A stretch of DNA of 64,000 nucleotides, from the NCBI GenBank assembly GCA_013153635.1, contig JAADDZ010000021.1:1-64000 (forward strand), read 5' to 3'. The translations under genes were made by a program, and so were the position numbers. Below are positions 30,023-33,565 of this stretch, piece by piece (within the stretch, counting starts at the first letter, position 1; every line of letters begins with the position of its first letter). The notes under the pieces were generated by a model, which saw nothing but the letters and a program-made list of their open reading frames with translations, was not told the DNA's origin and ran no database searches. The stretch is from Aquificota bacterium. GTDB lineage: Bacteria; Aquificota; Aquificia; Aquificales; Hydrogenothermaceae.

Positions 30023-30550
30023 ATGAAAGAGCTAAAACCGTTAACAAAAGAAACAGAAAAGCTTAGGAAAAGGATAGAGAGTATAGAAAAACATATCAAC
30101 GAAATAGCAAAACTACTAGAAGAAACAGAAAAAGAGCTTATAAAAGTAAGAGAAAAACTCACTAAAAAAGAAGAGCAAGTCCTAGAAATCGCTAGAGAAT
30201 TAAGAAAACTAGAGCATAAATTAATAGAAACAAAACAAAAGATAAAACACCACAGAAAATACCTCCAAAAGGCAGACTCTCCAAGAGAGTACGAGAGATT
30301 ACTGCAACAAAGACAAAAGCTTATAGATAAAGCACTTGAGCTAAGCGACAAAATAGACCAACTAAGAAAAAAGTATCAAGAACTTATAGACGAAGAAGAC
30401 AAACTCCTACAAAAAGAAGAAGAGCTAGAGAGAAAAAGAGATAAACTAAGAAAAGAATACAATTATTTACTTCAGGAATTACAAAGTCTCACAGAGTACT
30501 TAAACAGAAAAATTAGACAGATACAAGAAAAATACAACTTACAAAGTTAA
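30023..30550 (+). CDS. cytoplasmic coiled-coil protein of unknown function
   Basis: 175 residues made almost only of charged heptads (EETEKELIKVREKLTKKEEQ...), predicted as a helical hairpin with a break at about KADSPREYERLLQ. That layout resembles the coiled-coil half of the C4-type zinc-ribbon (YacB/DUF164-like) proteins, including the conserved SPREYERL-like turn, but no cysteines or zinc ribbon follow. No signal peptide or membrane helix. A GGAGGGG site precedes the ATG. It lies 38 bases after recG. Confidence 0.75.
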   Translation: MKELKPLTKETEKLRKRIESIEKHINEIAKLLEETEKELIKVREKLTKKEEQVLEIARELRKLEHKLIETKQKIKHHRKYLQKADSPREYERLLQQRQKLIDKALELSDKIDQLRKKYQELIDEEDKLLQKEEELERKRDKLRKEYNYLLQELQSLTEYLNRKIRQIQEKYNLQS

Positions 30551-30617
30551 TATGAGATAAAACATAAAAAAGGGTGTAACCTATCTATAACCTTAAGTAA
30601 AAACAGGAGGGTGTGCG

Positions 30618-31109
30618 ATGAAAAAGTTTATATATCTGGTTACAGCCTTAATTATGAGCATAACATATACAAAGAGTTTTGCTCACTGTGAGATACCTTG
30701 CGGAATATATGACGATGAGATGAGAGTACACATGCTCCAAGAGCATATTCTTACTATAGAAAAATCTATGAAAAAGATAAATGAGCTTTCAACTAAAGCA
30801 AAAGACCCACAGACCTACAATCAGTTAGTAAGATGGATTATGAACAAAGAGAAACATGCAAAAAAATTCCAACATATAGTATGGAGATATTTTTTGACCC
30901 AAAGAGTCAAGCCTGTATCCCCAGAAAACCACAAAGAGTATGAAATATACCTAAAAAAATTAGAACTTCTTCACAAACTATCTTTCTATGCTATGAAAGC
31001 AAAACAGACTGTAGACCTAAAATATATAGATATTTTAAGAAAAACTCTCCTAGAGTTTGAAGAGGTATATTTTGGTAAAAAACATATAGAAGAACATCAC
31101 AAACATTAA
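30618..31109 (+). CDS. sodN: nickel superoxide dismutase with Sec signal peptide
   Basis: 163 residues. After a clear signal peptide (MKKFIYLVTALIMSITYTKSFA) the mature protein would begin exactly at HCEIPCGIY, which matches the NiSOD nickel hook His1-Cys2-x-x-Pro5-Cys6-Gly7-x-Tyr9. The rest is a four-helix bundle of the right length (about 140 residues). In known NiSODs a short propeptide is removed by the SodX peptidase to free His1; here signal peptidase I would do so and export the enzyme. No sodX-like gene is adjacent. Followed by a good terminator. Confidence 0.85.
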   Translation: MKKFIYLVTALIMSITYTKSFAHCEIPCGIYDDEMRVHMLQEHILTIEKSMKKINELSTKAKDPQTYNQLVRWIMNKEKHAKKFQHIVWRYFLTQRVKPVSPENHKEYEIYLKKLELLHKLSFYAMKAKQTVDLKYIDILRKTLLEFEEVYFGKKHIEEHHKH

Positions 31110-31136
31110 GCTTCCTATCTAGGAAGCTCTTTTTTT
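31109..31136 (+). terminator. intrinsic terminator of sodN
   Basis: Stem AGCTTCC (31109-31115) pairs with GGAAGCT (31122-31128), six-base loop, followed by CTTTTTTTT. It overlaps the 3' end of the convergent helicase gene, so its bases also code for the helicase C-terminus. Confidence 0.85.
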
Positions 31137-33565
31137 AGTTTGTGTGCCAGTAGTATAGATGCTGTTTTATCTAAGTAATCATTAGAATTTCCACACTTTG
31201 GAGAATAGATACACGACGGACAACCTGCCATACAAGAACATTTGGATATATTCTTGTACACGCTGTTTATCATCTCTGGGAGTCTTTTAAATCCTACCTT
31301 TGAATAACCAACCCCTCCTTCATAACCATCGTATATAAAGATAGTAGGCTTTCCTAATTCAGAGAAAAAGTTTGTAGAAAGCCCTCCTATGTCCCATCTG
31401 TCATTCATCGCAAACAGAGGGTATATGCCTATTAGGGCATGTTCTACTCCATGTATCGCCCCTAGGAAAGATTTTGGAGAATCTAATATCCTGTTTTTTA
31501 ATTCTTTTATCTCTTCTCTTTCCCTTTGAGAAAATTTAGAAATCACAGAATCTAAAGAAGAGAAAATAAATGAGAGGAACTGTTTGTCTTTTGTCTTTGT
31601 ATATTTGAGTATATTCTCCCACACTATATCAGCATATATATTTCCTCCAGTATACAGATATTCTTTTTTCTTTAAGAATTGGTAGAAAATCCTTAGATTA
31701 TGTCTTAAATTTCGTGATATTATCTCATCTTCCCAATCTAAAGGAATAGTAAACCAAAAAGCCTCTGTCTCAAACTCTCTTGATAACGTTTCTTGAGAAG
31801 AGAAAAGAAAATCTTGGAGTTTCTCACCATTATCAAAATCTCTAACAGAGTAACCAATGACAAAAGTCTGTACCTTTACCTTTCCATAGAAAAGCTCTAA
31901 TTTTCCTAAAGTTTGGCGCTCTTCTATAGATTTAATCTCTATGTTAGATTCTTTTAAAGGTTCTGTTATAAATGTATTGCTGGTTTTCGCTACATAGACT
32001 ATCTTTGAGTCTTCATCGATACTTTCAACAAGAAACCTCTCTCCGTTGTGGAGATATATAGCTCCCGGGTGTGTCTCATATATAACTAATTCGTCAGGTA
32101 TCGTTCCTATATTTTTCTTCTTAAAAATATCTACAATAGTGTACGTATCCCCTGCTGACCTAATACTGAAAGGAGGTTGCCTTTTAGCATACAGTTTTTG
32201 ATTTTTAAACTCTAAAACTTTTTCTTTGTATAAAATTCTAGCTACTTCCTTTTCTTTTTCTGAAAGTTCTGATATTTTTATTGGGAGTTCCTTTGCCATA
32301 AATGGAATATGTTTTTTTAGTATATACTCGTTTTCTGGATTTATAACAGGCTCTTCCATCTGTCTTTTAAAAAGCTCTTGGGGATTTTTAACAAAATATT
32401 GGTCTAACGCATTTCTCTTTGGGAATAAGATATTATAAGCTTTTTTATCTCTTCTTCCAGCTCTACCAAATCTCTGCCATACTTGGGCTAACGTTCCGGG
32501 ATACCCTACTAGCACACAACAATCTAGCTCCCCAATATCTATACCTAACTCTAAAGCACTAGTAGACACCACAGCTAGGACATTTCTAGTCATTATTTTG
32601 AACTCTATCTCTCTTCTTTCTTGGGGTGTGTATCCAGAACGATAAGGGGTTACCTTTTCTACTAGGTCTTCTCTACCGATTTTTTGGAGAGCCTCTTTTA
32701 TCCTCAATGTTAAAAGTTCTGTCTCTTTTCTACTGTCTACAAATGCGATTGTAGATATATCTTGCTGAACAAGGTCTGCAATAAATTGGGAAATTTCTGA
32801 TGTTTTGATTTTTCTAAAGATTTTAACTTCTCTTTCAGGAGTACCTGCACCATTGTTAGATATTTCATAAACTTCATCTGTGATGAGCTTAGACGCAAAT
32901 TTTGCAGGGTTATGTATCGTCGCTGAATTCATTATAAAAACAGGCTTTTTGCTTTTGTAGTAGTTTACTACTCGCTTTAATCTTTTTATTATGTTTGCAA
33001 CATGAGAGCCTAATATACCTCTATATGTATGCACTTCGTCTAAAACTACAAAATCTAAGTTTTCATAGAACCAACTCCAGCTATTATGATATGGAAGAAT
33101 ACTAACGTTTAACATATCAGGAGTTGTAATAAGAAAATTTGGAGGGTTTCTCTTTATCTGCTGTCTTTCTTCTTTTGGAGTGTCTCCATCATAGACATTT
33201 ACAGAAACAGGTATACCCAATTCAGTAATAAGCTCTTTTATCTTCATGTATTGGTCTCTAGCCAAAGCTTTGAGAGGAAAAATGACTAATGCTTTTGCAT
33301 CTGGAGATGTGTGTAACCTTTCTAAAACAGAAAAAATGTATATAAAAGATTTGCCTGAAGCGGTGGGAGTAGTAACTACTATATTTTTACCTTCTTTTAC
33401 CGCTTTTAGCCCTTTTACTTGATGGGAATAGAGCTTAATCTTTTTCTGATTTAAAAACCTTTCTAGGGTTTTATTTTCGAAATGGAACTTTTCAAATTTC
33501 GGTTCTACCGGTGCTAAGATTTTTTCAAATGCTATTTTATTTCTGTACTGTTTTATCCATTGCAT
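31115..33565 (-). CDS. DEAD/DEAH helicase with DUF1998 zinc module (MrfA/Hrq1-like)
   Basis: 816 residues: RecA-like domain 1 with Walker A TPTASGKS (about 64) and DEVHTYRG (about 175); domain 2 with STSALELGIDIGELDC (about 340) and QRFGRAGR; a middle winged-helix-like part; and a C-terminal DUF1998 domain with four clustered cysteines (CSCMAGCPSCIYSPKCGN, about 777). B. subtilis MrfA, of the same build, works with the exonuclease MrfB in mitomycin-crosslink repair. No MrfB-like gene is next to it. The start ATG at 33565 has no strong site. Confidence 0.9.
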   Translation of the reverse strand: MQWIKQYRNKIAFEKILAPVEPKFEKFHFENKTLERFLNQKKIKLYSHQVKGLKAVKEGKNIVVTTPTASGKSFIYIFSVLERLHTSPDAKALVIFPLKALARDQYMKIKELITELGIPVSVNVYDGDTPKEERQQIKRNPPNFLITTPDMLNVSILPYHNSWSWFYENLDFVVLDEVHTYRGILGSHVANIIKRLKRVVNYYKSKKPVFIMNSATIHNPAKFASKLITDEVYEISNNGAGTPEREVKIFRKIKTSEISQFIADLVQQDISTIAFVDSRKETELLTLRIKEALQKIGREDLVEKVTPYRSGYTPQERREIEFKIMTRNVLAVVSTSALELGIDIGELDCCVLVGYPGTLAQVWQRFGRAGRRDKKAYNILFPKRNALDQYFVKNPQELFKRQMEEPVINPENEYILKKHIPFMAKELPIKISELSEKEKEVARILYKEKVLEFKNQKLYAKRQPPFSIRSAGDTYTIVDIFKKKNIGTIPDELVIYETHPGAIYLHNGERFLVESIDEDSKIVYVAKTSNTFITEPLKESNIEIKSIEERQTLGKLELFYGKVKVQTFVIGYSVRDFDNGEKLQDFLFSSQETLSREFETEAFWFTIPLDWEDEIISRNLRHNLRIFYQFLKKKEYLYTGGNIYADIVWENILKYTKTKDKQFLSFIFSSLDSVISKFSQREREEIKELKNRILDSPKSFLGAIHGVEHALIGIYPLFAMNDRWDIGGLSTNFFSELGKPTIFIYDGYEGGVGYSKVGFKRLPEMINSVYKNISKCSCMAGCPSCIYSPKCGNSNDYLDKTASILLAHKLKKELPR

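Follow-up and report, generated by a model that had tools for sequence, protein, structure and literature searches.

The gene at positions 30618-31109 of the 64,000-nucleotide stretch of DNA analysed here (the window) likely encodes a nickel superoxide dismutase (NiSOD) that is exported by the Sec system, cut at its first mature residue, His1, independently of SodX, loaded with nickel outside the cytoplasm and used for the removal of periplasmic superoxide. NiSODs are usually described as cytoplasmic enzymes with a dedicated maturation protease. Judged by sequence comparison, the host's protein is one member of a separate and widespread exported NiSOD subfamily, apparently with no need of SodX, and not a quirk of thermophiles.

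Identification of the gene

The open reading frame starts with ATG, is intact, lies on the + strand like all features given below unless otherwise indicated, and codes for a precursor of 163 aa. An AGGAGG ribosome-binding site (30605-30610) can be read directly from the sequence, 7 nt 5' of the start codon, and a terminator-like hairpin with a T tract (31109-31136) is found at the other end of the gene, where it is shared with a converging, helicase-like frame on the minus strand (31115-33565). The upstream neighbour, at 30023-30550, is a coiled-coil frame; the labels of both neighbours were assigned by eye. The scan that located this hairpin gave five terminator-like sites where 0.7 would be expected by chance.

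The product matches the Pfam profile Sod_Ni (PF09055) over nearly its whole length, with an E-value of 3.4e-32 and a score of 112.1 bits, where the cut-off is 25, and is the sole Sod_Ni match detected by a profile search of the whole host genome. A preliminary description of this DNA, which had proposed a NiSOD with a Sec signal peptide at this place, is thus confirmed by the profile match and by the arrangement of signal and nickel hook reported below. The NCBIfam equivalog model for sodN (TIGR02753) assigns 42.6 bits to the same product and its cut-off of 90 is not reached; two other exported NiSODs score 35.4 and 40.2 bits, and two non-exported ones 163.1 and 190.4 bits. The low TIGR02753 score, together with the occurrence of Sod_Ni in just 19 of 136 Aquificota genomes (18 of the 19 belonging to Hydrogenothermaceae), might be taken to indicate a degenerate or unexpressed homologue. 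This is very hard to reconcile with an intact frame provided with a ribosome-binding site and a terminator-like hairpin, and with the 21 positions found to be invariant over 62 relatives, and is considered extremely improbable.

Signal peptide and predicted N-terminus

The first 22 residues, MKKFIYLVTALIMSITYTKSFA (30618-30683), read as a Sec-type signal peptide, with a positive start, a hydrophobic core and an S-x-A motif (S-F-A) ahead of the predicted cut, A22|H23. The nickel hook, HCEIPCGIY, starts immediately after S-F-A, its His codon beginning at 30684, and would form residues 1-9 (30684-30710) of a predicted mature chain of 141 aa (30684-31106). The signal peptide was judged by comparison among relatives. 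Within 62 distinct relatives, the host's protein included, the residue preceding His1 is A in 48 cases, S in 12 and T in two. At -3, six of them carry L or I, and the other 56 one of A, S, V, T and G. A hydrophobic stretch is located ahead of His1 in all 62, so that the placement of the hook directly behind the signal, noticed earlier for this one protein, goes beyond chance.

The comparison was extended to 109 distinct NiSODs, drawn from 122 loci, which were split into exported and non-exported types at a best 10-residue hydropathy mean of 2.0, a threshold chosen by the authors, with 91 sequences above it and 18 below. The best 10-residue means of the 91 exported types range between 2.25 and 3.83, and all of them feature A, S or T at -1, while the values of the 16 NiSODs with a SodX-like neighbour are at most 1.61. 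An A-x-A motif precedes His1 also in 17 of the 18 non-exported NiSODs and, for this reason, is not in itself proof of cleavage by signal peptidase. The same observation favours a reading in which the signal of the host's NiSOD is retained as an uncleaved membrane anchor, or serves as a propeptide that a different protease removes in the cytoplasm; such a reading appears improbable, given that the hydrophobic stretch is present in 91/91 exported types and absent from the 16 with a SodX-like neighbour, and that the His1 amine would be buried in an uncut chain.

In the favoured route, export followed by cleavage at His1, the precursor would leave the cytoplasm unfolded via Sec, and signal peptidase I would cleave behind S-F-A, so that the chain begins with a free His. 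The N-terminus formed in this way would then bind its metal, presumably nickel, outside the cytoplasm, possibly aided by a histidine-rich tail, and the enzyme would clear superoxide in the periplasm.

Distribution of SodX

A SodX-like gene was detected within the fetched flanks of none of the 91 exported types, a count free of circularity, and of 16 of the 18 others, a count which is partly circular, as the profile used to search all frames of the loci was built from seven small proteins located beside non-exported NiSODs (Fisher p 2.6e-17, shared ancestry being ignored). The flanks of the 91 exported types include at least 600 nt downstream of the gene in 88 cases and on both sides in 82. One of the two exceptions among the 18, L099, lies on a contig ending 56 nt past the NiSOD gene; the other, L146, has a signal scoring 1.9 against the limit of 2.0 and is grouped by the tree with the exported types, so that the tree counts include it among these, and the 91/18 split places it below threshold. 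A partial match, L072, was left out. The sample was taken outside Actinomycetota and Cyanobacteria; 50 of its loci derive from a search seeded with the host's protein, which biases it toward the exported type, and of the 50 places that matched in Planctomycetota, 30 were read, mostly those with the best scores. The partition agrees with the earlier proposal that cleavage of the signal would bare His1 and make SodX unnecessary.

A survey of Aquificota for sodN and sodX, also proposed in the preliminary description, was run on 136 genomes; it returned Sod_Ni in the 19 mentioned above and a match at or over the cut-off of TIGR02754 (sodX) in none. The host genome contains no sodX match over this cut-off, none was found in the flanks of 30618-31109, and none was recognised by eye among the 63 window ORFs of at least 120 aa, as had been reported for the surroundings of the gene. 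Rescue by a remote SodX elsewhere in the host genome was set aside, since the single sub-threshold match to the sodX model (E 2.7e-4) is probably a signal peptidase I, a protein that produces matches of this type.

Outside Aquificota, TIGR02754 scores over cut-off in one of 42 genomes holding an exported type (G139), where SodX adjoins a second, non-exported NiSOD. Within the host's own family, genome G076 contains one NiSOD of each type, and a SodX-like gene overlaps the end of the non-exported one. With 43.9 bits this gene stays below the TIGR02754 cut-off of 63.25, and it resembles signal peptidase I too, so that it was graded as SodX-like, and not as a certified SodX.

Phylogeny and spread of the exported type

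A tree was built with IQ-TREE from an alignment restricted to the mature chains, with 109 rows and 140 columns. The 92 exported and 17 non-exported sequences fall on opposite sides of one branch with support 100/99, the stems being long on both sides, and the host's NiSOD falls in the exported clade. By record titles, the exported side comprises Aquificota, WOR-3, Omnitrophota, Planctomycetota, Poribacteria, sulfate-reducing Desulfobacterota, Nitrospirota, Acidobacteriota, Kiritimatiellota and Elusimicrobiota, a list to be read with the proviso that many of these records are metagenome bins, single taxon assignments may be wrong and sampling is uneven.

The closest loci in named genomes are those of Hydrogenothermaceae, a thermophilic family, at 76-77% identity. 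These neighbours fit, as context only, the periplasmic NiSOD envisaged at the outset for an organism of hot vents or springs; the exported form is not specific to heat, since sulfate reducers, Planctomycetota, Omnitrophota and further groups have it as well. Thermophily as the key to it was likewise rejected, in view of its presence in phyla with many mesophiles.

Two WOR-3 sequences and one Desulfobacteraceae sequence (L029, L030, L043), all from bins, nest among the Aquificota NiSODs, a placement that suggests gene transfer, the alternative being a binning error.

Predicted fold and nickel site

The predicted mature chain was modelled with AlphaFold2 on an alignment of 62 rows. In the model (mean pLDDT 91.8) it folds as the four-helix bundle of NiSOD, with a flexible hook which is disordered, residues 1-3 scoring under 50. 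Foldseek places NiSOD chains, 14 in all, at ranks 1-14, although with E-values above 0.001, and the top seven rows of VIA-align are NiSODs, at Z 13.5-13.7 over 109-113 residues with rmsd 2.0-2.5. Unrelated helical bundles reach Z 12.2, the best NiSOD (Z 13.7) being just 1.5 higher; for this reason the fold match carries weight through the sequence family and not alone. FliS and designed bundles, also returned by the fold searches, were set aside as common helical arrangements. Comparison with the solved NiSODs by phmmer gave E-values of 0.32-0.46 only.

In the joint alignment, H1, C2, P5, C6 and G7 are invariant in 92/92 exported and 17/17 non-exported sequences, and position 9 of the hook is Y in 89 of the 92 exported ones and F in three. 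We take the nickel ligands to be those of the known NiSOD structures, i.e. the N-terminal amine, the amide and thiolate of Cys2, the thiolate of Cys6 and the His1 side chain. The sequences with Phe9 all come from Planctomycetota (L120, L122, L128) and represent a natural counterpart of the Y9F mutant.

Other residues near the site differ from those of Streptomyces NiSOD, where Asp3, Glu17 and Arg47 presumably have roles. Position 3 in the exported type is Glu (68) or Gln (24) in place of Asp3, Glu17 is not retained in the exported alignment, and Arg47 is replaced by His in 91/92 exported sequences and by Gln (14) or His (3) in non-exported ones. Helices 2 and 3 are each shorter by four residues, the two gaps lying at the same depth, and a longer loop follows helix 2. 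These second-shell and helix differences are a point against the NiSOD reading.

The chain ends with a histidine-rich tail, FGKKHIEEHHKH (31071-31106), identified by the His count in the last 12 residues. At least three His are found there in 14/19 Aquificota, 16/73 other exported and 0/17 non-exported sequences, the rows being related to one another. The tail is possibly a collector of metal, with nickel as the candidate.

The second-shell residues and the His-rich tail would also suit a protein exported and cut at His1 in the same way, in which the site holds copper or another metal, or which mainly stores or delivers metal, and is not a NiSOD. Copper proteins, too, have an N-terminal His behind a signal peptide and, according to the available passages of PMC12537917, unrelated exported N-terminal-His domains bind Cu as well as Ni. 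Even so, this alternative is judged unlikely: both Cys, Pro5 and Gly7 in 92/92 sequences, with Tyr9 in 89/92 and Phe in the rest, make up the full NiSOD hook, well beyond a His brace, and a superoxide-reductase-like gene lies nearby in 4/50 loci. If the exported protein is a NiSOD, as we favour, copper could compete for such a periplasmic site.

Relation to described systems

The exported type shares with Streptomyces NiSOD and other SodX-matured relatives (SodN; PDB 1q0d, 1t6u; TIGR02753) the HCxxPCGxY hook, the four-helix bundle, the A-x-A motif and the Sod_Ni match. It differs in having a signal peptide instead of a short non-hydrophobic propeptide with an adjacent SodX, Glu or Gln at position 3, helices 2 and 3 one turn shorter, an extended loop behind helix 2 and, in many cases, a His-rich tail; it also scores below the sodN cut-off.

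In the literature searched, mostly without subscription papers, no paper on exported NiSOD as a group was recognised. The SOD_Ni of Roseiconus lacunae (WP_230780104.1; PMC12537917) resembles the host's protein in that its signal is followed directly by His and in its assignment to Pfam 09055. As far as the accessible passages of that paper go, its signal peptide was used as a probe, printed as ending in ...ASIASAH, and many NiSODs were recovered, so that signal-bearing NiSODs are already known; the signal serves there only for finding other metalloproteins, and the NiSOD group, the absence of SodX and the spread are not the subject of these passages. The SodX-free export route of NiSOD looks little described, although a signal-bearing NiSOD is thus in print. 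Algal ubiquitin-NiSOD fusions (PMC6332867), too, have a non-classic element ahead of NiSOD, but they are eukaryotic, with ubiquitin in front, and an export signal is not mentioned in the passages available.

A survey of sodN over 15,899 genomes (PMC8346466) names no Aquificota in the passages at hand, which call cyanobacterial NiSOD cytoplasmic and doubt that strains lacking sodX use it, with possible loss of function. The existence of an exported SodX-free subfamily would imply that a missing sodX need not mean an inactive enzyme, and surveys of superoxide dismutases that rely on sodN models may underestimate how often anaerobes and vent bacteria use nickel. It would also mean that nickel can be loaded outside the cytoplasm without the known helper and, in expression work, that a signal peptide could replace co-expression of SodX.

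Other superoxide-detoxifying enzymes, nickel handling and neighbouring genes

The host genome also encodes a Fe/Mn-SOD (C25), whose start is without a signal, and a superoxide reductase, and therefore NiSOD appears as an added, probably periplasmic enzyme; CuZn-SOD (SodC) was not found by a profile search of the host genome. In the simplest picture, superoxide reductase and Fe/Mn-SOD would defend the cytoplasm and the exported NiSOD the periplasm. Of 18 Hydrogenothermaceae with NiSOD, 12 are without any Fe/Mn-SOD; the enzyme is present in the remaining six, compared to 15/23 other members of the family (Fisher p 0.06), a weak and kinship-confounded difference.

The periplasmic CuZn-SOD, although of an unrelated family, would share both job and compartment with an exported NiSOD. 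SodC is absent from Hydrogenothermaceae and present in 17/136 Aquificota genomes, all without NiSOD; the two thus occur together in 0/136 genomes (chance 0.065), again a weak and kinship-confounded result.

A wider proposal, to which belief and doubt attach in equal measure, is that NiSODs form two sister subfamilies of ancient origin, distinguished by compartment and maturation. One would be cytoplasmic and matured with SodX. The other would be exported and occur in some ten phyla or more, with signal peptidase baring the hook and nickel taken up externally with the help of the His-rich tail; it would fill the role of SodC where SodC is absent, and would have been missed through its sub-cut-off scores with the sodN model.

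A NiFe hydrogenase is encoded in the host genome, from which it follows that the cell uses nickel. Two families of nickel importers were searched for in the whole host genome, NicO and CbiM, and neither gave a match, a point against the NiSOD reading; inspection by eye of the same 63 window ORFs recognised no nickel-uptake gene, in keeping with what had been said of the neighbourhood. ORFs from 50 loci and from a 10-kb part of the window were clustered; among the clusters found in at least four loci, neither SodX nor a recognisable nickel transporter was present. Clusters of 25 and 8 loci were dismissed as, by inspection, they look like shadow frames of NiSOD in GC-rich genomes.

The superoxide-reductase-like neighbours of exported NiSODs are desulfoferrodoxin-like genes, recognised by eye in L036, L042, L046 and L055. 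A frame for UvrA-like or other ABC ATPases lies near NiSOD in 7/50 loci (L022, L026, L044, L046, L054, L066, L069), in a cluster which may mix families and may be due to chance. A second Fe/Mn-SOD with a twin-arginine-like start was observed in relatives, at L087:1336-2073 (G072; VTRRDLLK) and at L088:2484-3980 (G075; MDRREFLK), the latter frame being interrupted by two transposase-like frames.
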